DNA of 61,990 nucleotides from a virus: positions 1-61,990 of the IMG/VR virus record IMGVR_UViG_3300042868_003570, one strand, 5' to 3'. Positions 13,860 to 44,675 of the stretch are shown piece by piece. The notes below the pieces were generated by a model that was not told where the DNA came from, did not search any database, and worked only from the letters and a program-made list of their open reading frames with translations. A program made the position numbers and the translations under genes. Within the stretch, counting starts at the first letter, position 1. Every line of letters begins with the position of its first letter.

Positions 13860-16800
13860 ATGACGTATACCGTTGCTCTTCCAGATGGCCGCACTGTTGA
13901 ATTTCCAGACAGCGTACCAAAAGAAAGGGCAGCGGAACTGTTGCGGCAACAGTTTCCAGCACCAGAAGCCAAAGCCGCTGGTTTCTCGGTTAGCGACATC
14001 TTCACTTCTCTGGGGTTAGGAGCGCTTGGCGGCACTAAAGCCCTGACTGACGTTGCTGGTGCAGGCAACGTCGTTTCTGAAAAACTGGGACAAGCAAGCG
14101 AGTCCCTCCAGCAACGCCTGTCCCCTGAGCGACAAGCCGAAATCAGACGCCAGCAAGAACGCGCTGAGAAGGCCGCAACCAGCGGCAGCACACTTGAAGA
14201 GATTAAAGCTGGCGCACAAAGCGTTTTTGAAGCCCCGCTCCAGTCCACAGCGCAGGCACTGGGCTCCTTTGCCCCCATCCTTGCCACTCTGTTCCTTGGC
14301 CCCGGCGCTGCCGCGCTAGGTCTTGGCGCTAGGGCCACTGCCGTAGCCACCAACATTGCCAAAGCAGCGCCCGTTGCAATCGGTACCGCGCAGGGAGCCG
14401 GTGCAGTCAAAGGCGCTATCTACGAGGGCGTCTACAAAGCAGAGCGCAAAGACGGCGTATCTGAAGACGAGGCGAAGGAAAAAGCCACCGCAGCGCAGGA
14501 CTATTTTGGCCAGAACATCGACCAGATTCTGGTGGGCGCTGGCGCAGGTTATGTCTCAGGCAGGTTTGGTGCGGAGCGCCTGCTTACTCCCGGCGCTGCC
14601 GCTAAAGCTGAAGGCTCGATGCTGGGCCGTGTTGGCACGGCGTTGGCAACAGATGTGCCAACCGAAGCCTTTCAAGGCGGTCAGGAACAGTTTGCACAGA
14701 ACCTTGCGCTGCAGCGCGAAGGACGCGATGTACCCCTCTTCCAAGGGGTGGCTGCACAAGCCACGCAAGAAGGTCTCATGGGGGCACTGGGGTCAGGCCC
14801 CATCGCGGCTATACGCGGCCCCGGAGATGCCCGCCTGCGGGAAGAGCAAGATCGCCGAGCCGCAGAGTCCGCACAACTGCAAGCGCAAGCTGACGCCCAG
14901 CGTGCCGAGCAAGAGGCGTTTAAACAGACGCCTGAGTACCTTGATGACATTGAAAAACGGTTTGCGCAAATAAAAGCGCAGGAGAAGCAACTCAAAGACG
15001 CCGTTCCGGCAAGGGCTGACAAAGACGATCTGCTGGCTGTTGAAGAACGCCGCAGGGCAGTCGAGGCGCTCAATGAGTTTAAAAAGAGCGACGAGTACGT
15101 CAACACCATTGACGAGTACACGCAGGCGTACGACCAACTTCGCCCTCGCGCACAAGAGCGCAAAGCGGCAGAGGTTGAGAAGCAGCGTGTTGAGCGTGTG
15201 CAAGCTGCCCCTGAAGGAACTCAGCTTGACCTAGCAGGAGAACCGGGCGCGGCGCAGGACATGTCGCAGCAAGGGCAGGTCGAGTCTCTTAAACAATACA
15301 TTGCATCTTTCGACAAGCAGATCAAACAAGCGCAGGCGGCAGGCGACCGGAATCAAGTGCTGGCGTTGCAAAACAAGCAGTACGAGGCACAGCAGCAACT
15401 TGCCACTATCGCCATCTCTGAATCGCTGCCGGAGCAGATCAAGTCACTTTCGCAGGACTTTGGCGGTTTTACTGAAAAAATTAAGCAGGCTGCGGGCGAT
15501 GAGGAACAGGTGCGCAAGCTGCTGGTTGAGCAGTACAAGGTGCAGCAGCAGATCACATCGCTGTTGCCTGACGCGTCGATGCTGGACGAGGCTAAGGCGT
15601 TGGCCCAGCGCAATCTAGAAAATTACCAGACGCAAATTCAAACGCTTACAGAGCAGCCTAATAAAAAACCTGAGCAGTACCGCCAGCTTGAGCAGCTTAG
15701 CAACACCGCCAATCAGGTTCGACAGGCAATTGCGGGCATTGAGTCCACGCAAAAAACGGTTGAACAGTACGCGCCCGTCGAGAAGCAAAAAGCTATTGAC
15801 AAGCCGCGAGAGATAGCCAAACTCAATAAAAAACTGGAAGATCAAGCCGCGCTGGGTGAAGACATCGGCCCAACGCTGGAAAAACTCCGGGCGCTGGATA
15901 CCGTTGCAGAGCAGCCAGCCCTGTTCGGTGATGAAGACCTGCGGGATGTAGTTCCTCGTGACTTAGGCGACATCATGGCCGACGAACGCGAGCGTGTTAA
16001 AGCCTTGCGAGAAAAGCTTGACGCCGAGCGTGCCTCCTTGCAGCGCATGGCTGCGACACCGCAGACGCAGCTCACGGAAGAAGTGCAGCGCAGAAAGAAA
16101 GAGCTTACTGAAGAGGCGCGAAAGACGGCTCAAGAACTTCAGCAACGCAACAAAGACCTGTACGAGTTTGAGAAGAAGCAGACGCTGCTCGACAAGCTGC
16201 GTAAAGAAAAACGTACGCCGCTGGTTGCCCAAGGCATTGAGGCCATTCAGCAGCAGATCGCTGCGTTGCAGAAAAAACTACAAGCGCAAGAACCCAAGGT
16301 CCGCGTACAGCAGCCACGAACCAAGCTGCCTGAAGCCGCCCCTGAAGGGGAGTTTGCACCTCGCGTAACTGACGCTCAACTTACTGAGCAGCGCGACCGC
16401 GACATTGCGGCGCTGTTGGACAAGTTCTTGCCCGGTGCACTGGGCGTAACACCCACGCTAGAGGTACTGAAAGTGCAGGGGCCGGAGGGTCCGCGTGAAG
16501 TAAGACTGACCACGCTGGGTAGCACAAGCAGCAAAGCTTTGCGCCAAGAACTGGAAAACGTAAACCGCCGCCGTGATGACGCTGTTGTGGAGTTGTTTGA
16601 CTCTAGAGGCCCAACGGCTAACGCGTTGCGCAGCGAAATCGTCATGTTGGTCACGCGTGAGGTGGAGCTAAACCGTCAACTGAGCAAACTTGACCCGCTC
16701 AGTAATGAGTACCGAAAAGACTTGCAGTCGCTTGTTCGGCAGACGTTTACGCGCCCCAGCGCCATACCCAAAAACCGCACACCAAACCTTGCGGAACAGC

Positions 16801-19800
16801 AGTACCTTGACGCCGTTGACAACATGCAGCGCGTTGAAGACGCCACGCTGGACGACATTTATGCAATGAACAAGCTGGCGTATAACGCTAGGCAGCGTGG
16901 GGTTGTAGATATAACCGCTTTGGTGCAGAACAACCCCGTCATGCAAGCGGGGCGGGATGCTGAAGCGCGTTTGTCCGCCGCCCAAAAGCGTGTTGATGAA
17001 GCGGCTAAAAGAATGCCGCAACTGCCGGACCTCACTGAGCAGGCGCTTGAAGACAAGATTGACACGCTTGCGGCGGAGTTTTCTGAGGGCACACCCCAGC
17101 AACTCTCAACCGCAACTAAAGCACGGCGTGTGCCAGCCGCCGTGCGGCCCCCGGCTTTGTTGGGCGTGGACATCCCTGCACAAATTGCAGCCAATAACCG
17201 GCAGATTGAGCAGCTCAACAAAGACATTCAGTACGCGGGTAAACCGTCAGGTGCTGAGAAAGTGGCAGCGCTCAATAAGATGAAGGCGGAGCGTGACCAG
17301 CGCCGGGAAGAGAACCAACGGCTTGACGCACAACTGACAACAATACGCGGCAAACTAGGACAAGCCGCAGAGCCCGCAGCGCCCGCAGAAGAAATTGGTG
17401 AAGTTGCCGAGATGCGGCAAGAGCTTGCCACCATTGAGCGCACGCTTGCATCAGATAAAAAAGAACTTAAACAACTGCAAGAGCAGTTGCAAGAACAGCA
17501 GAAAAAAGAACAAACGCCCAAAATTCAAGAAGAAGTTGCCACTTTGGGGCGGCGGATAAAACAATTTGAGGCTAGAGCCAACATCACGCGTCAGCTTGAG
17601 GCTGCACGCGATGACCTTAAAGAACGGCTTCAGGCGCAGGGGGCAAAACCTGTAGAAACGCCTAGCACAGAAGAACAGTTGGGGTTTAGGACAGGCCCCG
17701 CGTCAAAATTTCAGTTAACAGAACTCAAACCTGTTACCGCAGAAATGACCAAAGCGCGTACCGCTATTGTTGCGGCTACGCAGCGCATTGAGGACATACA
17801 CAAAGCCGCAGGTCGTGTTAGCGACATGGGCGAGCAGTACTTCCGCGAAGTTGCAACGACGTACCAGCTACAACTGGACAAAGACAACAATGCGCTGAAC
17901 AACATTAAAGCCGCCATTGCACGCGTGTTGAAAGGACAGGAGGAAGCGCAGCTTGCCATCAACGCCGCACGTACACCTGAACAAAAGGCAACTGCGGTCA
18001 AAAACTTAGACGAGCTGCGGCAGCGAGAAGTCGACCTCAAAGATTTGCAAACGGTGCGCGAGCGCCGAAAAGCAGGGATGCGTGAAGCCATTGCCGAAGT
18101 GCAGCGGTTTCTGAATCTGTCGCGGTTGGCGGGCGTAAACAAAACCACCAGCCTGCGCGAAAGCCTTGCCCAAGCACTTGACCGCGCTTTGGCAGATAGG
18201 GAGAAAAAAGAAGCCGCGCTTGCAGAATTGCAGAAAAAGCAACGCATGTACGAGCAGCAAGAGGCTGCTAGGCGCGGGATCGACCTCGGCGAAGCTGAAG
18301 CTGAGAAGATTACTGCGGGTGAGGCTGAAGGGTTTGTGTCGGTGTCTGGTAAAGCACTGGGCGAGAAACCTAAAGCACAACGCAGCGGGGTCATCAGCAA
18401 AGACAGCAAAGTCAAGGTCATCAAACCTGACCAAAGCAAGAAGTTGGAAGAGGCTATTCAAACTGCTGCGGCTTTGGTTGGCGAAGCTCGGCGCGAGAAA
18501 GAGACCGCCAAGGAAGCATTGCAAGCGCAAACGCCTTCCGCAGAGCGCTTGGCTTCGCTTAAACAAGCACTCACAGCGCTTGAAAAGCAGGTCAACGCAC
18601 ATTACAACGCGACACAGATTGCAGAACTTCAAGCCGAGATTGGGCAGTTGCAAGCGCGGTTGGCGGCGCTTCCCGTTGCACCGGCAATTGCTGACGTAGC
18701 TGAGCAATACAACAAGGCCAGCACTGCCACAAAGGGTTTACCCGCACCAGAGCGCGTTGCGCAGTTGATGTTTGATAAAAGCAGCGCTGAACAAAAAGCC
18801 GCCGCGCAGTTCAAGGCCGCTGAGCAAGCCGTTGCTGCTGCCCAAGCCAAGTACGCCGCCGCCGGAAAAGCGCTGAGTCAGGCTGAGAAAAAAGTTGCGA
18901 AGACGCTACCTCAAGGGTTTAAGGTACGAAATCCGCAGAGACTTCAGGGCATCAAGCTGCAGATCAGCAATTTGCTTGCTTCCGCACCAAAACTGCGTGA
19001 TGACATTCAAAACGCTTTGTACGCGCAGAGCGAGGCAGAGAAGAACTACATGGCAGCTCGCCTTGAGCGGCTGCTGCTTAACCAGCAGATGGGCGAACAT
19101 GCCAAGCGTGATGCTGCCAGCATCACGGCACAGTTGGCAAGCGCTGCCGACGCCGTTGCAAACCTGCAGAAACAACTGAGCACCGCAACTGCCAATGAAG
19201 TTGCAATGCGAAGCAAGCTCGACAAGAGCAGCGCAGCGTTGGAAAAAGCCCTGGACGACGCAGAGATTGCACGGCAAGCCGCACGCAACGCAGAGCGTTT
19301 GGCGCAGGAGCAAGCGCAGACATCTGCACTGGATGCCGCCAAAGACGCGCAAGACCGCGCTGATGCTTTACGCACAGGGCTTGGGTTGCCCGGCAGGCGC
19401 GTCGAGCGCGACACCGCAGGCAAGGTGATGACGGCGGTTCAAGCTGACATTCGTCAGCGCATGGCTGCGGCAGAGACCAACCTGTCCAAAGCAATCAAGG
19501 CAGGCAACCCAGACGCTATCAGGAAGTACACCGCCGAAGTTGAAGCCACGACTAGAGAGCTGGCGCAGGTGTACAGCAAAGCCCCGCTTACTGTTTCCGA
19601 GGTCGGTGCTGCAGCGCAAGCACGCAAACGCTCCGCAGGGCTTACCGCTAAACAAAAAGAAAAAACGCTGGAGAGCGTACAAAAAGAACTGGACGAGGCG
19701 GTCATCGAATTGCGCGATGCAACTAATCGTAACGACACCGCAGCGATTAAAGCAGCGGACGCTAAAGTTGAAGAACTGATTACGCTGCGCGATGCGTACG

Positions 19801-22800
19801 CAGTTCAAACGGCAGCACAACCAGAAGTTGTCGAGGGTGTGCGCTCGACTTCACGCCGGGAAGGTCCGGCTGTTCGTTATGTTCGTGGCGGCAGCAAAGC
19901 CATCATGCAGGCTGGCGCGGTCAAGTTGCGTGCGGCAGGCATGTCGCAAGACGCGGCCAATGCGGTCAGTTTGTACGTGGCCAAGAGCAGAATCCGTGGC
20001 GCTAAAGACACGGCAAAAGTGGAAGAGCTGACGCAAGCCTTTGACGCGCTCACTGATGGCATGACCGAAGAGCAGATCAAAGCCGCAGTTGCAGAAGGCA
20101 AGCGCCTCATGGGCCTCGGCCCCACTGCTGAACTTATAGCCAAGCGTGTAACGTACCAAGAGGCGTTGGCAAACGTCAGTAAAGCAGAGCAGGACTTGCG
20201 CGAAGCCAAATCCAATGTGACCAAAGAACTTGCGCAAGATGCGTTGGATTTGGCAAAACAGCGCGTAGAGTCTGCTTCCAACTCGTACGACCAAGCCAAG
20301 GCGCTGTACGAAACGTCGCAAATCAGGACCGCCAAGAAAGCCGAGAAGGACGCGGTCGAGGCGCTGTTTGATGAGACAGAGATTGCGCAGGACACGAAAG
20401 GTGCCAAGCTCGGCAAGGGCGCAGGTCGTACCGCAGCGGCGATTGAGGGGAGCGTGTTCCGTACCACTGACACCGCTGGACCCGGCATGAAAGCGCAACG
20501 TGTCCGTGACGTAGCGCTTAAAGTTGCGTCTGAGTGGTCTGTTGTGCCGGACATTTTTGTTGTAGAAGACATTGACGGGTTGCCAGAGAACATCCGGGAG
20601 CAGGCAATAAAAGCAGGTGTTGCCGACAACATTCCGGGCGTGTACGACCCAGCAACCAAGACTGCTTATCTGGTTGCTAGCAACCTTAAAACAACTGAAG
20701 ATGTGTTGTTGACCCTTGCGCACGAGGTAGCCGGTCACTTTGGTTTGCGAGAAGTTTTGGGTAGTTCGTACGCACGCACTATGCAAAAGCTGTATGCGGG
20801 CAACAAACTTGTGCGTGACCGTGCCAACGAGAAGATGCAGGCGCAAAAGTTTCTTGACCAGAATACGGCGGTGGAAGAGGTGCTGGCGGATATGGCTGAG
20901 ACGGGGGCGTCACCACAAGAGCGCAATCTTTTGCAACGCGTGTATGACTTTGTCAAGCGCTGGCTCAAGGACACGTTTCCAAGCTTGAAAATTGACCGCG
21001 TTACTGACAACGATGTGCGGCAGGTTGTGGCCAACGCTCGGCGCTATGTGACCAACGCAGACAAGTCTTTGCTGGAAGGCGGCGCTGCTGCTACCAGCGG
21101 CGTGGTCTATCGCACAGCGCCCGAGTCCTCCATCGTTGGGCGTCCTGCCGGTACGCTGGCTACGCTGCACGGCAACTTCTTCGGTCTGGCGGGGCGTGTG
21201 CAGCTCGTTGACAGGCTGGCGGCGGCAGACAAGGCGTTTGTCGAGGGCCAGAAGGACGGGAAGCTGTCATCGCTGGAGGCGGAGAACGCGCAGTATTTCT
21301 TGCGTATGGGCGACATGACAACGCAAGCTGCGGGGCAGTTCATTACCAACGGGCCTGTGCGTATCATCAAAGACCGCATCGCTGATCGCGTGGAAGAGCG
21401 CTACGAGTCACAGAGCGGCGCAACACTTGTTCGCGTGACGGACTACATGGAGCGTGCAGGTCAAGAAGGGCTGGGCTCAGCGCAAGAGGTTGAGACGCTG
21501 CTCACCGTCAAGATTGCCGGTGATCGCGCCAACACCATCCCTCGTGGCTGGGAGCGCCTGTTCTCAGAGAACCCCGCAAAAGCCAAGGCCGAGTACGACG
21601 CCGCTGTTGCCAAGATCAACGCTAACCCTGCAGCCAAGAAGTTCATGGACGCAGCAGCCGTAGAGTACAAGGCGTACAACGACGGGCTGATGGATTTTGC
21701 CGAGCAGACCGGGTTCATCACGACAGAGGACGCTCGCCGCTTGAAGAAGACACCGTACGTGCCTTACTACCGAATTGATGGCGGCGTGGTCAAACTGTTT
21801 GTGGACCGTGAGACCCCGCTGGTCATTGGCAACATCAAAGACAACCCTGACTTGCAGCAACTGCTTGGCGACAACAAGCAGATCATGCCGCTGCTGACCA
21901 GCGCTGTGCAGAACACTTTCATGCTGACTCGCATGGGGCTGCGCAACAAGGCTACGCAAGAGACAGCGTCGGCACTGGAGAAGGCCGGGTTCGTGTCCAA
22001 GATGGGTGAAGGCATGGGGCTGGCCAACGTCGATACTGTGCACTACAAGTACAAGGGCAAGCCGTACTTTGCAACCATTGACGCAGATCAGTTTGGCATC
22101 CCCGCAGACCTGATCGTCAAGGGCATGGAGGGTATCAAGACAACGATCCCTGACATCGTGCGGTTGATGGGTGTACCGGCGAACTGGATTCGCACATTCG
22201 TGACGCGTTCCCCCGCGTACGTGCTGCGGCAGTTGATCCGTGACCCATTGAGCGCGGCTATTACCGGCGGTGTGGACGGCGTGCCTGTGCTCAACGCAAT
22301 GAAGCAGCTTGCCAAGATGAAAGCGGGCACAAACACTTCAGCCGACGCCTTGATGCGCGGCCTGACTGTGAGCAGCAACATCTACACCGGCAACGAGCAG
22401 GACATGCAAAAGTTCCTTGAGGCTGCGTCTGGTGGGCGCGGGAAGTGGAGCAAACTGATGGGCGTGTTTGACCAACTGGCGCTGGAGTCGGATGCGGCCA
22501 CGCGTACTGTTGTGTACGAGGACTCGTTGAAAAAGGGGTTGTCCGAGCGGCAAGCGCAGTTCCGCGCACTGGAGGTGCAGAACTTTGGACGCCGGGGCTT
22601 GTCGCCCAGCGTGCAGTACATGGCTACGCTGGTGCCGTTCTTTAACGCGCAGATTCAGGGTCTTGATGTGCTGTACCGCAGCTTCCGTGGCGACATGCCG
22701 TTCTCCGAGAAGCTGGAGATTCGCAAGAAGATTGTGTCTCGCGGCTTGCTGTTGACGGCTACCGCGCTGGGGTACGCGTTCATGATGCGTGACAACGAGG

Positions 22801-23678
22801 AGTACAAGAAGGCCACGCCTGAAGAGCGCTACAGCAACTTCTTTGTGCCAATTCCAGGCACCAAAGACATGTTCAAAATACCAATCCCCTACGAGGTTGG
22901 CCTGCTCTTCAAAGCGTTGCCCGAGGCGTTGCTCGACGCCATCATCGGCGACACCAAAGCCACGGAAGCTGCCAAGGGTATAGGCAAGTTGCTGTTGCAG
23001 TCGGCCCCCGGCGTGATCCCAGCGGCAGGCAAGCCGTTGATTGAGGCGGCTTATGGGCAGACGCTTATTGGGCCAATTGAATCCGAGCGCGAGAAGCGGC
23101 TTTTTGCGGGCCAGCGCTTTCGTGAAAACACACCGGAGGTGCTCAAGACTCTGGGCTCGTACACCGGCGCAATCGGTATCTCACCGCTGCTACTGGAACA
23201 CTTTGCTAGAGGCTACACCAGCACGCTTGGCGTGTCAGTGCTGCGGGCGCTGGACCCCATCATGGGCGAAGCCCTTGACAACAAGGCCACAACGCCCTTG
23301 AGCAAAACACCTTTTATTGGCGGCTTGTTCCAGACAGCCGATGGCAGGTTCCTGATCGAGCGTGCGTACAACCGCATGGAAGAAGTCACGCAGGCGGCTG
23401 ATAGTTACAAGGACTTGCAAAAGCGAGGCAAAAAAGCCGAGGCAGAAGCGTTTGCGCAGCGGCACGCGGACTTGCTTGCGGCATCGGACATGGCGGGTAC
23501 ATTTCGGCAGCGCTCTGGTCAGATGTTTGCAGACGAGCGAGCAGTACGTGCAGACCCAAGCCTGTCCCGCGAGCAGAAAGACGCGTTGCTCGCAAAAATC
23601 AAAGCAGCGCAGCAGATGGAGGCGAAGCAGTTCAGCGAAGCTTCCGATAAAACCACACGCCAAGCCGCCCGTCCCTGA
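13860..23678 (+). CDS. Giant polyvalent virion protein (3272 aa) with metallopeptidase-like and LPD38-like regions
   Basis: SD GAGG. The N-terminus (MTYTVALPDGRTVEFPDSVPKERAAELL) and a hydrophobic stretch near 130-190 suggest membrane contact. About 330-2180 is almost continuous charged coiled coil rich in Ala/Lys/Glu/Gln. Residues 2288-2293 read HEVAGH and 2339-2344 EEVLAD, a zinc-peptidase pattern with the spacing of M49-like gluzincins. From about 2560 on, sequence such as RSPAYVLRQLIRDPLSA (near 2780) and FFVPIPGTKDMFKIPIPYEVGLLF (near 2990) matches the LPD38 region of phage polyvalent proteins. These proteins are thought to be injected with DNA. No RNA polymerase motif or transglycosylase was seen. 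Confidence 0.75.
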   Translation: MTYTVALPDGRTVEFPDSVPKERAAELLRQQFPAPEAKAAGFSVSDIFTSLGLGALGGTKALTDVAGAGNVVSEKLGQASESLQQRLSPERQAEIRRQQERAEKAATSGSTLEEIKAGAQSVFEAPLQSTAQALGSFAPILATLFLGPGAAALGLGARATAVATNIAKAAPVAIGTAQGAGAVKGAIYEGVYKAERKDGVSEDEAKEKATAAQDYFGQNIDQILVGAGAGYVSGRFGAERLLTPGAAAKAEGSMLGRVGTALATDVPTEAFQGGQEQFAQNLALQREGRDVPLFQGVAAQATQEGLMGALGSGPIAAIRGPGDARLREEQDRRAAESAQLQAQADAQRAEQEAFKQTPEYLDDIEKRFAQIKAQEKQLKDAVPARADKDDLLAVEERRRAVEALNEFKKSDEYVNTIDEYTQAYDQLRPRAQERKAAEVEKQRVERVQAAPEGTQLDLAGEPGAAQDMSQQGQVESLKQYIASFDKQIKQAQAAGDRNQVLALQNKQYEAQQQLATIAISESLPEQIKSLSQDFGGFTEKIKQAAGDEEQVRKLLVEQYKVQQQITSLLPDASMLDEAKALAQRNLENYQTQIQTLTEQPNKKPEQYRQLEQLSNTANQVRQAIAGIESTQKTVEQYAPVEKQKAIDKPREIAKLNKKLEDQAALGEDIGPTLEKLRALDTVAEQPALFGDEDLRDVVPRDLGDIMADERERVKALREKLDAERASLQRMAATPQTQLTEEVQRRKKELTEEARKTAQELQQRNKDLYEFEKKQTLLDKLRKEKRTPLVAQGIEAIQQQIAALQKKLQAQEPKVRVQQPRTKLPEAAPEGEFAPRVTDAQLTEQRDRDIAALLDKFLPGALGVTPTLEVLKVQGPEGPREVRLTTLGSTSSKALRQELENVNRRRDDAVVELFDSRGPTANALRSEIVMLVTREVELNRQLSKLDPLSNEYRKDLQSLVRQTFTRPSAIPKNRTPNLAEQQYLDAVDNMQRVEDATLDDIYAMNKLAYNARQRGVVDITALVQNNPVMQAGRDAEARLSAAQKRVDEAAKRMPQLPDLTEQALEDKIDTLAAEFSEGTPQQLSTATKARRVPAAVRPPALLGVDIPAQIAANNRQIEQLNKDIQYAGKPSGAEKVAALNKMKAERDQRREENQRLDAQLTTIRGKLGQAAEPAAPAEEIGEVAEMRQELATIERTLASDKKELKQLQEQLQEQQKKEQTPKIQEEVATLGRRIKQFEARANITRQLEAARDDLKERLQAQGAKPVETPSTEEQLGFRTGPASKFQLTELKPVTAEMTKARTAIVAATQRIEDIHKAAGRVSDMGEQYFREVATTYQLQLDKDNNALNNIKAAIARVLKGQEEAQLAINAARTPEQKATAVKNLDELRQREVDLKDLQTVRERRKAGMREAIAEVQRFLNLSRLAGVNKTTSLRESLAQALDRALADREKKEAALAELQKKQRMYEQQEAARRGIDLGEAEAEKITAGEAEGFVSVSGKALGEKPKAQRSGVISKDSKVKVIKPDQSKKLEEAIQTAAALVGEARREKETAKEALQAQTPSAERLASLKQALTALEKQVNAHYNATQIAELQAEIGQLQARLAALPVAPAIADVAEQYNKASTATKGLPAPERVAQLMFDKSSAEQKAAAQFKAAEQAVAAAQAKYAAAGKALSQAEKKVAKTLPQGFKVRNPQRLQGIKLQISNLLASAPKLRDDIQNALYAQSEAEKNYMAARLERLLLNQQMGEHAKRDAASITAQLASAADAVANLQKQLSTATANEVAMRSKLDKSSAALEKALDDAEIARQAARNAERLAQEQAQTSALDAAKDAQDRADALRTGLGLPGRRVERDTAGKVMTAVQADIRQRMAAAETNLSKAIKAGNPDAIRKYTAEVEATTRELAQVYSKAPLTVSEVGAAAQARKRSAGLTAKQKEKTLESVQKELDEAVIELRDATNRNDTAAIKAADAKVEELITLRDAYAVQTAAQPEVVEGVRSTSRREGPAVRYVRGGSKAIMQAGAVKLRAAGMSQDAANAVSLYVAKSRIRGAKDTAKVEELTQAFDALTDGMTEEQIKAAVAEGKRLMGLGPTAELIAKRVTYQEALANVSKAEQDLREAKSNVTKELAQDALDLAKQRVESASNSYDQAKALYETSQIRTAKKAEKDAVEALFDETEIAQDTKGAKLGKGAGRTAAAIEGSVFRTTDTAGPGMKAQRVRDVALKVASEWSVVPDIFVVEDIDGLPENIREQAIKAGVADNIPGVYDPATKTAYLVASNLKTTEDVLLTLAHEVAGHFGLREVLGSSYARTMQKLYAGNKLVRDRANEKMQAQKFLDQNTAVEEVLADMAETGASPQERNLLQRVYDFVKRWLKDTFPSLKIDRVTDNDVRQVVANARRYVTNADKSLLEGGAAATSGVVYRTAPESSIVGRPAGTLATLHGNFFGLAGRVQLVDRLAAADKAFVEGQKDGKLSSLEAENAQYFLRMGDMTTQAAGQFITNGPVRIIKDRIADRVEERYESQSGATLVRVTDYMERAGQEGLGSAQEVETLLTVKIAGDRANTIPRGWERLFSENPAKAKAEYDAAVAKINANPAAKKFMDAAAVEYKAYNDGLMDFAEQTGFITTEDARRLKKTPYVPYYRIDGGVVKLFVDRETPLVIGNIKDNPDLQQLLGDNKQIMPLLTSAVQNTFMLTRMGLRNKATQETASALEKAGFVSKMGEGMGLANVDTVHYKYKGKPYFATIDADQFGIPADLIVKGMEGIKTTIPDIVRLMGVPANWIRTFVTRSPAYVLRQLIRDPLSAAITGGVDGVPVLNAMKQLAKMKAGTNTSADALMRGLTVSSNIYTGNEQDMQKFLEAASGGRGKWSKLMGVFDQLALESDAATRTVVYEDSLKKGLSERQAQFRALEVQNFGRRGLSPSVQYMATLVPFFNAQIQGLDVLYRSFRGDMPFSEKLEIRKKIVSRGLLLTATALGYAFMMRDNEEYKKATPEERYSNFFVPIPGTKDMFKIPIPYEVGLLFKALPEALLDAIIGDTKATEAAKGIGKLLLQSAPGVIPAAGKPLIEAAYGQTLIGPIESEREKRLFAGQRFRENTPEVLKTLGSYTGAIGISPLLLEHFARGYTSTLGVSVLRALDPIMGEALDNKATTPLSKTPFIGGLFQTADGRFLIERAYNRMEEVTQAADSYKDLQKRGKKAEAEAFAQRHADLLAASDMAGTFRQRSGQMFADERAVRADPSLSREQKDALLAKIKAAQQMEAKQFSEASDKTTRQAARP

Positions 23679-23788: not shown

Positions 23789-26770
23789 TCAACGGATCGC
23801 CACGGGAACAAGCGGCTGTAGGATGACATCGTCTACGTCTTCTGCGCGTCTGGTGATCTTGACGGCACTGACCCGCATGGGCGGGCCGTCCGTCTTGGCC
23901 AGCATGTCCTTGCGCTGCATGAAGCTGACGATGAACTGCGCGGATATCTGCTCGCGGAACGTGTTGTAGCTAAAGCTCATGGCCGAGCAGTACGCCCGCA
24001 GCAGCCGCTCCTCTATGAAGAAGTCCACACCACCGCCACCAACGCCGTGCTCGACGCGGCCCATGATCTCTGTGCGCGTGGTGTTCTTGCCGACGATAGA
24101 GCCGTCGCTGAACGCGGCCAGGACACCCGCCTTCTCGCCAAACTTGACCACTACGAACTTGCCCTGGTACTCCTGAATGTAGGCGTTGAGCACATCCTCT
24201 GCCGTACGCTTGCCGCCCGCAATGCTGCGGCGCTGCTCCTCAAACGTGGCGTTGAGCACCTTGATGATCTCTTGCATTGGGATGTCCACGAGCCCCGTGT
24301 GCTGGCTATTGCACAGCACACCAGCGGCAACGATGACCCCGGCACCAGCCATCCAAAACCGCTCATCGTTCGGCGCGTTAAACGTCTTATACATCTGCGC
24401 CACGGTCTGCGGCACAAGCGTCTTGAGGTAGCCGATGTTGTTCACAAAGTACCGCGACAGCACATCCCCTGCAAGGCCGTAATTGCCTTGCAAAGACTTG
24501 ATGATCTCGATCTCTTCTTCACTCCACTCCAGCTTCTCGTCCATCGCCATCTCAATCAAGCGGCGAAGCTCACCCTCAGATGAGTGCTGCCGCACGCTTG
24601 TCAGGTAGTCAACCGCTGGCCTGTTCGATGACATCAGCGCCAGTGCTGCCCAAGTTGACAGGTTCAGCCGCTCACGGTTGGTGCCCGACTCCATCCTTTC
24701 TTTGCCGCGCCCCTCGGACATACTAAAGAGGAATGCAGGGAACCACTCGAAGTCTTTGCGGTTGTTGGTGGTGATCTCGTCGGTCACAAGCGGCAAGCTG
24801 CGCAGGTGCCCCAAGCGCTGCTGCATGGCCACGCCCGATGTGCCAGAGCCGGTACGATAGTGGACCGGGTGCCCCCACACAGATGCCGCAGTGTCCAGCG
24901 CCAAGGACTTACCCGTGCCGGACTCTGCCGAGGCGCAGTGGACGGTCAGGCCGAACAGGCCCGTGAAGCGCATGAGAGGCGAGCCCACACCGACCAAGAA
25001 GATCGTTAAGTGCTTCCACAGTTTGCGGCGCACAAGCATGTTGATGACCGCCTGCCACGCATCCAACGAACCTGCGGGCTTGGTGTTGCTGACAATGTTC
25101 TCCAGCCCCGCCATAGGCACGAACACGGGCTCGGCACCGGGCTTGTAGATGGAGCTGTTGAAGACGAAGCTGTCGTCTTCTTGCCAGCCATACGCCGAGG
25201 GGATGCGTATAGGCTCCCTCTCAGTGCTCATCTTCTCCACACTTGCGCGGACATACTCATACAGGTTCTTGTCATTGCCCGAGCCGAACGCGGCCAAGAT
25301 GTTCTGGTTAGCCAGATGCTTGAGCGCATCGTCCCTAGCGGCCATGCTCCTTTGCGGCAGCAGCACTTCTTGAACTTGGTTGTTGCGCACGGCCAGAAAG
25401 TGAACATCGTGTGTGCCGTTGTTGTTCAGGATGTCCACGGGGAACAAGTCGTAGGGCAGCAGCATGTGCTGGCGCTTTTGCGTGTTGCCGTCCCCGTCTT
25501 CTTCTTCCTTCTCGATGAACACGCCGCCGTACTTGCCAAACGCATACCCCCGAGGGGGCTCTGGGCGGTACATTTTCTGCGGTGCAGCATCAGCAACCTG
25601 CACCTCAATCTCGACTGCCTCGGTCACAGAGTTGACCTCGCGCCCCCAGCCCAGCGGGTTTGTGATCTTGCCCCTGTGCTGGCACTTATTACACACGCCG
25701 GGGTTGGCATCGTTCATGGCCTCGCACGAGTACGGCCCCTTGATCTCGTGCAGCTTCCTGTACATCCTGTCGTGGTCGTACGGGTGCATGTCGCTCAACC
25801 ACACCGCCGCTTTCGGGCCATCTACGCAGACCTTGGTCCAGCTCAGCAGCCCACGCCACAGCGGCTCCGTGCCATCCTCATCAGCGTTCTCGATGTAGTG
25901 GGCAATCTGCCCGCAGCCTGTGCCGTCACGGGTCTTGAGCAAGATTTTCTTGAAGCGCGTGATGCTGTTGCCAATGATGGCCTGCGCCGTGGGCGACAGT
26001 GCTTTGACACTGGTCGGACGCTGCCCTGGCAACGTTAGCGTGTTGATGGTGGTGGGTGGGGGCGGTGGTGCTGTTTTGTCAATGCCTTCAGCCGTCAAGA
26101 TAGCGTCGATGTCGTCCACGGCGAAGCGGTTGCCCTCAGTGATGAAGCGAACCTTGGTGGCTTCGCGCACACGCTTGCCGTTCTTGACCCCGGTATTGGT
26201 CGTATCAAACACACGCAGCACCCTGGACGCGTCCCCCGTCACAGCGTTGTCGATCTTCAAGCCATGCTTGTGGCACAGCTCCTTGAACCGCTTGGCCACG
26301 GGGAACCAGTCCTCCTTGAACATCATCTCGCTTAGCGGCCAGTAGGCGTGTATGCCGCCGCCCGAGTGCACTATCCACGGATCACCCAGTGCTGCGAGCC
26401 CCGTGTCCTCACAGAACTTTTGCAATGCCTGCGCGGCAGCTTTGGCGCTTGGGTATGCCTTGGGCTTGATGACCATCTCGCCCGTGTCTTTGTCGGGTTG
26501 CGGGATGTCCTTGGGGTGGTTGCAGTCAAGGTCAACTGCCAGCACTTGGCTGGCGTGCATGTTGTCCTTGGTGCGGTCTTTGCTCGTGCCGAACGTGCCC
26601 AGCGCAAAGTACGTGTCGTAGCCCTTGGCGGACCAGCGCTCAATTGTTGGAAGTAGCTCTTCGAGTGTCTCCTTGAAAACGTGTTCTTTTTTGTTTGTAA
26701 GCTCAGCGGCGCAGTAATACCCATTACCCGGCGACGGCAGAACCTCCGCTAGAAACTCAAGCGGTGTCAT
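23789..26770 (-). CDS. PrimPol-like primase fused to DUF927-type helicase
   Basis: 993 residues; SD GGAG. The N-terminal archaeo-eukaryotic primase pattern is: metal-binding DLD at 80-82 (VLAVDLDCNH), HSGGGIHAYW at 135-144, and an Asp/Arg motif near 180-186. A Cys group (C349, C360, C363) may bind zinc. The C-terminal DUF927/superfamily 3-like ATPase has Walker A SAESGTGKS (614-622) and Walker B LPLVTDEI (659-666). Such proteins prime and unwind at the replication fork. With the family A polymerase in the same operon this makes a compact replisome. It is the last gene of the - strand unit. Confidence 0.85.
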   Translation of the reverse strand: MTPLEFLAEVLPSPGNGYYCAAELTNKKEHVFKETLEELLPTIERWSAKGYDTYFALGTFGTSKDRTKDNMHASQVLAVDLDCNHPKDIPQPDKDTGEMVIKPKAYPSAKAAAQALQKFCEDTGLAALGDPWIVHSGGGIHAYWPLSEMMFKEDWFPVAKRFKELCHKHGLKIDNAVTGDASRVLRVFDTTNTGVKNGKRVREATKVRFITEGNRFAVDDIDAILTAEGIDKTAPPPPPTTINTLTLPGQRPTSVKALSPTAQAIIGNSITRFKKILLKTRDGTGCGQIAHYIENADEDGTEPLWRGLLSWTKVCVDGPKAAVWLSDMHPYDHDRMYRKLHEIKGPYSCEAMNDANPGVCNKCQHRGKITNPLGWGREVNSVTEAVEIEVQVADAAPQKMYRPEPPRGYAFGKYGGVFIEKEEEDGDGNTQKRQHMLLPYDLFPVDILNNNGTHDVHFLAVRNNQVQEVLLPQRSMAARDDALKHLANQNILAAFGSGNDKNLYEYVRASVEKMSTEREPIRIPSAYGWQEDDSFVFNSSIYKPGAEPVFVPMAGLENIVSNTKPAGSLDAWQAVINMLVRRKLWKHLTIFLVGVGSPLMRFTGLFGLTVHCASAESGTGKSLALDTAASVWGHPVHYRTGSGTSGVAMQQRLGHLRSLPLVTDEITTNNRKDFEWFPAFLFSMSEGRGKERMESGTNRERLNLSTWAALALMSSNRPAVDYLTSVRQHSSEGELRRLIEMAMDEKLEWSEEEIEIIKSLQGNYGLAGDVLSRYFVNNIGYLKTLVPQTVAQMYKTFNAPNDERFWMAGAGVIVAAGVLCNSQHTGLVDIPMQEIIKVLNATFEEQRRSIAGGKRTAEDVLNAYIQEYQGKFVVVKFGEKAGVLAAFSDGSIVGKNTTRTEIMGRVEHGVGGGGVDFFIEERLLRAYCSAMSFSYNTFREQISAQFIVSFMQRKDMLAKTDGPPMRVSAVKITRRAEDVDDVILQPLVPVAIR

Positions 26771-42190: not shown

Positions 42191-42229
42191 CTGGGGTGAA
42201 CTTTCACCCCAGAGAGATATCTCTCTGGG
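42191..42229. promoter_or_regulatory. Compound palindrome: GGGGTGAA dyad plus AGAGAGA dyad (copy a)
   Basis: Two overlapping perfect palindromes. 42191-42212: arms CTGGGGTGAA/TTCACCCCAG with 2 central bases. 42208-42229: a 22-bp perfect palindrome built on AGAGAGATATCTCTCT flanked by CCC/GGG. The first is related to 43624-43650, and the second to four more copies at 43557, 43963, 44204 and 44425. Most likely a binding site for a dimeric protein. Confidence 0.65.
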
Positions 42230-42244
42230 CGTGTTTGACACTGG

Positions 42245-42892
42245 TCATGTCAGCTCTGCCCAGTGGTTGGGTATGTGTGCGTTAGTTGGCAGCGCCCTGA
42301 GTGCGTCCCGCGCTGCTTTGAGCTTGTGCACCTTGTCCGTGTCGTCCGAGGAAACGGCAGAGTCAAGCTCACTGTTGATGTGCCTGAGCAGTCGCCCTCG
42401 TCTGCGGTTGTGGATAACGGCTGGCACCGTGCGGGTGAACGGCTCTTTGAACTTGGCCTTGGCGCGTATGGGGACGAGGCTGGCCTCCACAATGAACGCG
42501 TCTTTGATGCGCTCGGGCACGTAGTCCGTCCAGTGACTGTGCGCTGGCAGTGTGTCCCTGGCATCGCGCATGGATGCGAGCTTGGTGTACGCCTTGTTCA
42601 GCAGGTCGTAGTAATCTTGAACGAACACCTCGCGTTCTGGCGCTGGTGTGCTCGGCTTGTACTTGACCATCGAGCGCACTATGCGCCTCTCGTGCTGCAA
42701 CGGGGCGATCAGCTCGTCCCATGCCTGCCTGTGTGCGGTGCGTTGGCGCTTGGCTGTGCTGATGGCACGGCGTTGCTCCTTGATCGCCTCGATGGTGCGG
42801 TCGATGATTACTTCGGGCATCTCCTCACGGCGCAAGACCCAAATGATCTCGCGGTACGTTTTGTTGGCGAAGCGGCGGTGTGGATCACGCAT
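42245..42892 (-). CDS. Hypothetical basic helical protein, 215 aa
   Basis: SD GGAGG. The N-terminal part (RDPHRRFANKTYREIIWVLRREEMPEVIIDRTIEAI) resembles a small helical DNA-binding unit, and the rest is a long Arg/Lys-rich helical protein (EQRRAISTAKRQRTAHRQAWDELIAPLQHERRIV). It is strongly basic overall, so nucleic-acid binding is plausible but not shown. It lies immediately downstream of the large inverted repeat. Confidence 0.6.
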   Translation of the reverse strand: MRDPHRRFANKTYREIIWVLRREEMPEVIIDRTIEAIKEQRRAISTAKRQRTAHRQAWDELIAPLQHERRIVRSMVKYKPSTPAPEREVFVQDYYDLLNKAYTKLASMRDARDTLPAHSHWTDYVPERIKDAFIVEASLVPIRAKAKFKEPFTRTVPAVIHNRRRGRLLRHINSELDSAVSSDDTDKVHKLKAARDALRALPTNAHIPNHWAELT

Positions 42893-42934
42893 GATTCCTC
42901 CGGTGTGGTTGCAAGTTCTGCCATTTTACCATAG

Positions 42935-43013
42935 ATTACTACGCGAGTACCGCGTTTGAGTGTGCGTAAGTCGTTGATGTGTAAGGTGATTTGCGGGTTG
43001 TGTCCCCTCTATC
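42935..43013 (+). repeat. Inverted repeat, left arm
   Basis: Blocks ATTACTACG (42935-42943), TACCGCGTT (42948-42956), TGCGTAAGTCGTTGAT (42963-42978), GTTGTGTCCCCTCTATC (42997-43013). Confidence 0.9.
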
Positions 43014-43125
43014 AGTATTTTTTCCAGCTTCCGTGCGCCAGAGATTCTCAAAGAGATTACAGAAAGATGGAAAAAGATGGAGAGAAAATTTCTTTCTTCT
43101 TTCTTTAAAAGTTTATTTATATATA

Positions 43126-43204
43126 GATAGAGGGGACACAACATGGACAACGCCATATGAATCAACGACTTACGCAACCTTGAACGCGGTACGGTCGTAG
43201 TAAT
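43126..43204 (-). repeat. Inverted repeat, right arm
   Basis: Reverse complements of the left-arm blocks at 43196-43204, 43183-43191, 43161-43176 and 43126-43142, in the same order and with the same spacer lengths. Confidence 0.9.
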
Positions 43205-43230
43205 CACTGGCGAGCTCGAAGGCGTAGTAA

Positions 43231-43404
43231 TCATGGAGATTCCTCCGCACTAAAGTGATTTCGCCACAGTGGGAGGTTGCGCCAGTCGAGGCGGGCTTGT
43301 CGGGCCTCGTCGATACGCCGCTGCTCTTGTGGGGGCAGCTTGGCGTACAGCTCAGAGCGCAGCTTGTGGAGCTGCGCTAGGTGATACCGTTTAACGGCGG
43401 TCAT
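43231..43404 (-). CDS. Small basic hypothetical protein, 57 aa
   Basis: ATG 43404 lies 14 nt inside the end of the preceding gene; the SD is poor, so translation is probably coupled. Helical and basic: MTAVKRYHLAQLHKLRSELYAKLPPQEQRRIDEARQARLDWRNLPLW. It ends just before the inverted-repeat region. The function is unknown. Confidence 0.55.
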   Translation of the reverse strand: MTAVKRYHLAQLHKLRSELYAKLPPQEQRRIDEARQARLDWRNLPLWRNHFSAEESP

Positions 43405-43609
43405 GTGTCCCACGCAGAGCAGCCATCGCCTGCTGGCCCACGAACCAGCCCTCAAGGGCGTTGACGGATGCCAGCACGGTCTCCTCGCCAGTGCTGGCGA
43501 CAACGCGCCAGATGCAGAACTCGGGCCGCGTCTCGCCAAGGGGCAGCTCCTCGTAAAGAGAGAATTCTCTCTGGCCGATTTGAACAGTGCCGGTGTGCTT
43601 AGTTGTCAT
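43391..43609 (-). CDS. Hypothetical protein, 72 aa, containing palindrome copy b
   Basis: ATG 43609 with SD AGAGGAGAAAC. Beta-rich: TGTVQIGQREFSLYEELPLGE, EFCIWRVVASTGEETVLASVNALEGWFVGQQAMAAL. The AGAGAGAATTCTCTCT palindrome falls within its codons for Q-R-E-F-S-L, so the DNA element is maintained inside coding sequence. No family is recognised. Confidence 0.58.
   Translation of the reverse strand: MTTKHTGTVQIGQREFSLYEELPLGETRPEFCIWRVVASTGEETVLASVNALEGWFVGQQAMAALRGTHDRR
43557..43572. promoter_or_regulatory. AGAGAGA palindrome, copy b
   Basis: AGAGAGAATTCTCTCT, a perfect 16-bp palindrome inside the 72-aa gene, followed by GG as in copies a, d and e. Confidence 0.65.
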
Positions 43610-43962: not shown

Positions 43963-43978
43963 AGAGAGATTTCTCTCT
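43963..43978. promoter_or_regulatory. AGAGAGA palindrome, copy c
   Basis: AGAGAGATTTCTCTCT: 7-bp perfect arms with central TT. It lies 3 nt after the stop of the 140-aa gene. It is the one copy whose centre breaks the dyad and whose flank is GA, not GG. Confidence 0.6.
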
Positions 43979-43981
43979 GAG

Positions 43982-44404
43982 TTACTTGGCAACAGCTTCG
44001 AGAGCAGCGATGGCAGCGGCCAAGCTGTCGAACTGCTCAAGGTAAGCCTTGGCTGCTGCCCTGTGCTGCTTGCTGATGCGAGCGTGGGCCTTGGGCTGAG
44101 CCACCACCGCTTTCACAGGGCGCACCACGCAGTACCTGAAGTCACTGCTGGCCCTGTCAATCGCCTGTACGTGCTCAATCTTTGCGCCATCGCCTTTGCC
44201 CCTAGAGAGAATTCTCTCTGGGACACCCTTGATGGCCTTGCACTCTACCTGCCCTTCAAGATAACCCAGCATCCACCTACGGCGAAGGTCTGACTGCTGC
44301 TCGGCAGTAGCGCCGACATAAGCCACATGAAAGGCATCGGCGCCGTTGCGCATCTCATGCCGTGTGCGGCCCACACGGGCTGCATATTGTTGAATCGAGA
44401 TCAT
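43982..44404 (-). CDS. Hypothetical protein, 140 aa, first gene of early operon
   Basis: ATG 44404 with SD TAGGAGC; the longer frame to 44617 lacks an SD and its extension is repeat- and regulator-derived. The N-terminus ISIQQYAARVGRTRHEMRNGADAFHVAYVG may be HTH-like. The C-terminus is Ala-rich helical. As the promoter-proximal gene of the - strand unit it may be a takeover or regulatory protein. Palindrome copy d is within it and copy e is in its leader. Confidence 0.6.
   Translation of the reverse strand: MISIQQYAARVGRTRHEMRNGADAFHVAYVGATAEQQSDLRRRWMLGYLEGQVECKAIKGVPERILSRGKGDGAKIEHVQAIDRASSDFRYCVVRPVKAVVAQPKAHARISKQHRAAAKAYLEQFDSLAAAIAALEAVAK
44204..44219. promoter_or_regulatory. AGAGAGA palindrome, copy d
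   Basis: AGAGAGAATTCTCTCT followed by GGG, inside the 140-aa gene. Its codons there are P-E-R-I-L-S-R, a different frame from copy b, so conservation acts on DNA and not on protein. Confidence 0.65.
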
Positions 44405-44424: not shown

Positions 44425-44440
44425 AGAGAGAATTCTCTCT
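44425..44440. promoter_or_regulatory. AGAGAGA palindrome, copy e
   Basis: AGAGAGAATTCTCTCT followed by GGG, 20 nt upstream of the start of the first early gene (44404). Confidence 0.65.
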
Positions 44441-44675
44441 GGGTTGATGACCACTACACGTATGTGCAGTGGGTTGATCGGGCTGCTGTTGCTGCTCCGA
44501 TATCTCTATTTGACTTATGGGGGGTTTGGGGAAGGTCATGGCAGACCCCCTTCTTCGACCCCCACCGTACCCCCACCCACCATATATAGGCATGACGGGA
44601 CGCTGCCACACGAACACTGTTTCACACCTACCCCCACAACTTCCGTAACACTTAGCTACTACTTCCCTAATACCT

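Follow-up and report, generated by a model that had tools for sequence, protein, structure and literature searches.

A twin-arm inverted repeat as a candidate origin of replication in a 62-kb phage, and a sequence module that it shares with other replicons

The window analyzed here, a stretch of 61,990 nt of viral DNA (positions 1 to 61,990 of IMG/VR record IMGVR_UViG_3300042868_003570), carries a long inverted repeat around an AT-rich core in an intergenic region bounded by the leftward genes 42245-42892 (215 aa) and 43231-43404. This locus raises the question of what a pair of outward-facing sequences does for the phage. Three answers had been suggested in an earlier note made from the letters of the sequence, namely an origin, a double promoter and a transposon-like end pair; the first of these is the best supported, and the last is without support. 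With a little better than even confidence, we regard the element as a double-stranded DNA site that serves as the phage's origin of DNA replication. This reading is favored because of the twofold symmetry of the element around its core and because the DUF927 helicase that the phage encodes has relatives among the proteins of the staphylococcal islands.

The arms, each 90 nt long and separated by 102 nt, were delimited in the window by a repeat search and in-register alignment (Table 1), and match as reverse complements at 69 of 90 positions (77%) without gaps. Their match includes four perfect blocks of 10, 10, 16 and 17 nt separated by spacers of 3, 6 and 18 nt; the outer two lie at 42934-42943/43196-43205 and 42947-42956/43183-43192, while the inner two are the type-1 module and the inner block of Table 1. 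The earlier note had recognized the inverted repeat with its AT-rich core, the blocks of 16 and 17 nt and the spacers of 6 and 18 nt, all of which were recovered, but its arms of 79 nt, core of 112 nt, outer blocks of 9 nt each and first spacer of 4 nt have to be replaced by the values given here. The equal spacing of the blocks in the two arms is expected from their ungapped homology. The repeat itself is real and far above chance: the element aligns to itself with a score of 96, as against at most 28 in 20 shuffles, and in a BLAST search against its own genome the arms match each other with E = 4e-14, with no second copy of the element elsewhere in that genome. It is the sole inverted repeat of such size in the window, the runner-up being 25 nt long. 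The sequence TATATATA at 43118-43125 spans the right edge of the core. Among smaller repeats, the leftward operon has five copies of a palindrome near AGAGAGAATTCTCTCT (42211-42229, 43557-43575, 43963-43981, 44204-44222 and 44425-44443), and relatives carry other small palindromes at gene ends; the structural region has segments duplicated at 89-94% identity around gene ends (56041-56111/56430-56500 and 56103-56152/56680-56729).

Table 1. Features of the element and two genes of the window discussed with it
Feature	Position	Strand	Description	Basis
Left arm	42929..43018	-	reads outward, same direction as the leftward early operon	repeat search, in-register alignment
Right arm	43121..43210	+	reads outward	repeat search, in-register alignment
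Core	43019..43120	.	102 nt, AT-rich, purine/pyrimidine tracts	sequence
Type-1 module, left arm	42963..42978	-	ATCAACGACTTACGCA; IHF consensus WATCAANNNNTTR matched except first base	alignment; recurrence in viral contigs
Type-1 module, right arm	43161..43176	+	inverted copy; AATCAACGACTTA from 43160 is the full IHF consensus	
Inner block, left arm	42997..43013	-	GATAGAGGGGACACAAC, contains GGACA site	GGACA/TGTCC enrichment in element family
Inner block, right arm	43126..43142	+	GATAGAGGGGACACAAC, contains GGACA site	GGACA/TGTCC enrichment in element family
Outer blocks, left arm	42934..42956	-	AACGCGGTAC + CGTAGTAATC	in-register alignment
Outer blocks, right arm	43183..43205	+	AACGCGGTAC + CGTAGTAATC	in-register alignment
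215-aa gene beside element	42245..42892	-	linked neighbor	
DUF927 primase/helicase	23789..26770	-	candidate initiator, would bind the arms	DUF927 E 2e-23

Searching with the 215-aa neighbor identified 11 viral loci at first and 30 later, the former being contained in the latter, and 24 of the 30 were examined in detail. An intergenic element precedes the gene in all 30 loci, always at the same genomic place, and such conservation of a non-coding element supports its being an origin. When the arms of 25 elements (the window and 24 relatives) were scored, they matched each other above the cut-off in 19, the match being weak or lost in the remainder (e.g. L010, L027, L034 and L046). The arm sequence diverges strongly among distant relatives, though the two arms of one phage mostly still match: in 143 of 171 pairs, the arms of one genome score higher against each other than either does against its counterpart in the other genome. 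Hence, the two arms turn over together, which is a further point in support of an origin. Close relatives differ in this respect, with the window and L004/L008 resembling one another arm by arm. The gap between the arms measures 81-127 nt in 18 of the 19 scored loci (38 nt in L042), and the core is AT-rich across this element family. Since small gaps are needed to align the arms of L004, L011, L012 and L014, the block spacing is not absolutely fixed. The earlier note's idea of spacers strictly kept in every relative has thus to be given up, while its central picture, of two outward copies of a contact-like set of sites that are retained around an AT-rich core in related phages as the rest diverges, is borne out. 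The exact block pattern of the window's element found no match in viral contigs, nor did the whole region as a DNA query among annotated phages. In the nearest named phage by terminase, DSL-LC04 (L015 13478-13680), a long non-coding region includes an inverted repeat whose core measures 131 nt and whose sequence differs from that of the window's element. The competing possibility, an open reading frame across the element (42926-43234), was rejected: in the nearest relatives, L004 and L008, the frame ends after 21 codons, making it very unlikely that the region is coding. Arms descended from paralogous reading frames were likewise rejected, there being no usable start codon in that frame in either arm.

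Within the family, the pentamer GGACA/TGTCC is strongly enriched in both arms, with 70 occurrences in 22 elements as against 11.5 expected and a maximum of 19 in 200 shuffles. The GGACA and TGTCC sites of one arm have opposite orientations and lie about four helical turns apart, at a distance that is nearly fixed in the relatives: of 12 pairs, 10 are spaced by 41-43 nt, and the remaining two, which come from L029, are wider by a helical turn (54 nt). Between the paired sites of the relatives' arms sits a module of 18-21 nt. The enrichment, the spacing and the interposed module together support the origin reading, which is weakened in turn by the scarcity of exact sites in some members relative to classical iteron arrays: the window has just three, and L012, L013, L014, L031, L032 and L046 have none or one.

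The module comes in two kinds, CCTTATAAATCAACGACTTAC or AACCCGCATGGATACTGG, either of which may stand in either orientation. It recurs in hundreds of further viral contigs, often amid repeats particular to the phage. The consensus site of IHF is WATCAANNNNTTR; the type-1 module, AATCAACGACTTACGC, fits it, whereas the type-2 module, of the CCCGCATGGNTNCTGG type, occupies the same place and does not. Viral contigs contain the exact 21-mer GTAAGTCGTTGATTTATAAGG 38 times, where chance would give far fewer than one match by a rough estimate that assumes a collection of about 45 billion bases; a looser type-1 form and the 18-mer of the second kind each have at least 120. The four free bases of the looser form are mostly CGAC, TGAC, CAAC or TAAC among the matches listed, and the conservation therefore exceeds the IHF consensus. 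From the matches listed we collected 244 non-redundant viral loci by module sequence alone, some of which are related, so that the counts drawn from them are not fully independent. Among these matches, the module lies upstream of the large terminase gene in 76 of the 81 loci with a detectable terL (within 4 kb in 71), and in 92 of 97 with three more terminase-like seeds; terminase large-subunit families dominate the nearby open reading frames (phrog_38 in 34 of 100 near versus 5 of 90 far). A primase-helicase gene was detected in 41 module loci and is less than 1 kb from the module in 22, a proximity which supports an origin; in 19 of the latter the module lies behind the 3' end of the gene. 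Three of the module-adjacent primase-helicases carry VapE, DUF5906 or PriCT_2 domains. Among the matches listed, an inverted repeat above the cut-off occurs near the module in 69 of the 244 loci, with the module inside an arm in 45. Further support comes from unrelated phages that have the same twin-arm layout built with strong repeats of their own: CGTCTAAC nine times in L334, TGTAGGAA nine times in L289, and AGGTTGG 11 times in L314, which is among the clearest such cases (own repeat AGGTTGGAC). In this wider set some cores (L314, L242) are rich in GC, a poor composition for a melting region and a point against an origin.

Beyond phages, the module occurs on plasmids and beside integrase genes. 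In a two-gene plasmid of 2.67 kb that lacks a terminase, it abuts long direct repeats (two copies of GGTCACCAGCTATGTCCGCACCCCC) and lies upstream of a winged-helix gene, and this also supports a role in replication. With the type-1 query, 5,426 E. coli genomes gave two matches only, both on small plasmids. Module-like copies on plasmids (L353, NZ_CP166711.1, 79-102; L072, 1501-1532; L071, 1501-1536) are placed about 140-165 nt upstream of genes for a winged-helix protein, an HTH protein and a member of the H-NS family. Elsewhere the type-1 module adjoins tRNA genes or tRNA-like ends (L345 4001-4099, Curvibacter phage PCA1; L068 1501-1760, Pseudomonas phage USP_25; L123 105-145), with an integrase or recombinase gene alongside in two of the three. 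A search for the module sequences in the literature library returned only a PCR primer from an ICEclc paper, which contains the type-1 module, and no description of the modules. We tentatively raise the possibility that CCTTATAAATCAACGACTTAC and AACCCGCATGGATACTGG are hitherto undescribed, interchangeable parts of phage and plasmid origins, shared by hundreds of unrelated replicons whose own repeats differ, and that a common host factor, not simply IHF, reads them.

As to the proteins that could act at the element, the 215-aa neighbor has an all-helical predicted model (pLDDT 91) whose fold has no significant match in the PDB, and the family found no match in the bacterial genome collection. 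A different gene takes its place in other lineages; hence, it need not be the binding protein. The DUF927 protein, encoded about 16 kb from the element, matches 8tch ("Pathogenicity island protein", E 3.6e-6) and 5dgk ("Active helicase", E 0.0015), and on the strength of such similarity it is related to the self-loading helicases of SaPIs and SCCmec. SaPIbov1 Rep is a relative of the DUF927 helicases, as is the SCCmec helicase Cch, and SaPI Rep binds the iterons of its origin, apparently as two hexamers (PMC7581432). Elsewhere in the window, 13860-23678 is a single open reading frame of 3272 aa with LPD38, near its end, as the sole Pfam match.

From these parts we infer a mode of action in which each arm, in the relatives, would present initiator-like GGACA/TGTCC sites flanking a module that probably bends the DNA or binds a helper protein. 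With the two arms facing away from the AT-rich core, an initiator, for which the phage's own DUF927 helicase is the best candidate, would assemble on both; the core would then melt between them, and two helicases would travel outward as replication starts. The distance of the helicase gene, unlike the adjacent gene of the SaPIs, weakens this reading. Moreover, the locus carries no skew signal: neither GC skew nor third-position skew (the latter in four full-length genomes) has a cusp at the element, and skew follows gene direction only.

The strong link of the module to the region upstream of the terminase also weakens the origin reading, as it fits a packaging initiation site (pac or cos) too. 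Here, the small terminase would bind the short repeats and the module would bend the DNA separating them, the part played by IHF between R3 and R2 of lambda cosB. The fit of the type-1 module to the IHF consensus adds to the resemblance, the IHF site of cosB being located between terminase sites (PMC4856287). Of whole contigs, 14% have an end no more than 250 nt from the module as against 7% expected, a weak excess (KS p = 0.02); the record of Vibrio phage 1.021.A starts 10 nt from the module, and in phage Mansfield the module falls within the terminal repeat, whose end is about 250 nt away. However, the inverted symmetry of the twin arms fits two-way initiation rather than one-way packaging, and the module is present on plasmids and beside integrase genes too. 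The window's element, moreover, is about 1.7 kb from a terS-like gene and about 2.3 kb upstream of terL, but within an operon directed oppositely, with oppositely directed genes in between. The breaks of the four full-length relatives fall at different places, none of them at the element, which would speak against a fixed cos, though not against a pac site; this is expected of permuted genomes without a fixed cos, and breaks in an assembly are not mapped termini. An origin, too, would sit naturally at the early/late boundary upstream of terS. A packaging site is the strongest rival of the origin reading but unlikely, and the two functions are not mutually exclusive.

It is still less probable that the element is a divergent regulatory site, with operators and two outward promoters for the early operon and an antisense transcript. 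Many relatives do have -10-like motifs (TAAAAT, TATAAT) at the operon-side outer end, shortly before the 215-aa gene, and in L038 each of the two outer ends bears a near-copy of CTGTCC-ATTTGACACAC-ATAATCAYGGA. Yet scanning the element for consensus promoters gave no hit, the flanking genes run the same way, so that a rightward promoter would serve no gene, and operators need neither 90-nt arms nor an AT-rich core of near-constant length.

A structured RNA, i.e. a transcript folding into a long hairpin as an attenuator, processing site or non-coding RNA, appears very improbable, even though either strand is predicted to fold very stably (z -10.0 and -9.0). On the strand opposite the operon, arm mismatches in 16 loci are G-T in 101 cases versus A-C in 57, a ratio of 1.77 where composition predicts 1.24. 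The operon strand has the opposite bias (57 to 101), which runs against RNA pairing, and a hairpin selected on the operon transcript was accordingly rejected. The primase-adjacent set has no significant bias (49 to 35, p = 0.16), and the element has no Rfam match. Locus by locus, G-T exceeds A-C on the strand opposite the operon in all 14 loci that differ (arms of L008-L045 and the window), composition explaining only part of this. Transposon ends, finally, were rejected, as the element stays at a single locus in all relatives with one copy per genome.

For most environmental phages the origin is not known, and protein annotation is unable to locate it. The twin-arm layout and the two modules offer a sequence handle for predicting origins in hundreds of viral contigs. 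If the origin reading is true, a SaPI-like start of replication would be common in large phages as well as in satellites, and the factor reading the shared modules would become a testable target.

Among known systems, the origins of PICIs and SaPIs (SaPIbov1, EcCICFT073) are comparable in that an AT-rich region has a set of short repeats on either side and the initiator or candidate initiator is a self-loading helicase, DUF927 or D5 in type. Here, the flanking repeat sets are apparent over the family more than in the window alone. The element differs in that the two sets are joined into a single long quasi-palindrome, each arm of which contains an 18-21-nt module, and in belonging to a 62-kb phage rather than a satellite. 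Unlike the module in 19 other loci, which is within 1 kb behind a primase-helicase gene, the site does not lie directly downstream of the helicase gene in the window, and we therefore do not class the element as a PICI/SaPI-type origin. With lambda cosB (R3-I1-R2-R1) it shares short protein sites, putative here, on both sides of an IHF-fitting module, and the location upstream of the terminase genes. In contrast to the single unit beside cosN, it has two inverted units around a core, no fixed genome ends are seen in the four full-length contigs, and the module is interchangeable with one lacking the IHF consensus. Satellite P4 offers a lead for comparison: its ori and crr, which are separate sites, have 8-bp repeats in both orientations that are bound by its primase-helicase, the alpha protein. 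What would be new here is a quasi-palindromic, twin-arm origin built with a shared module.
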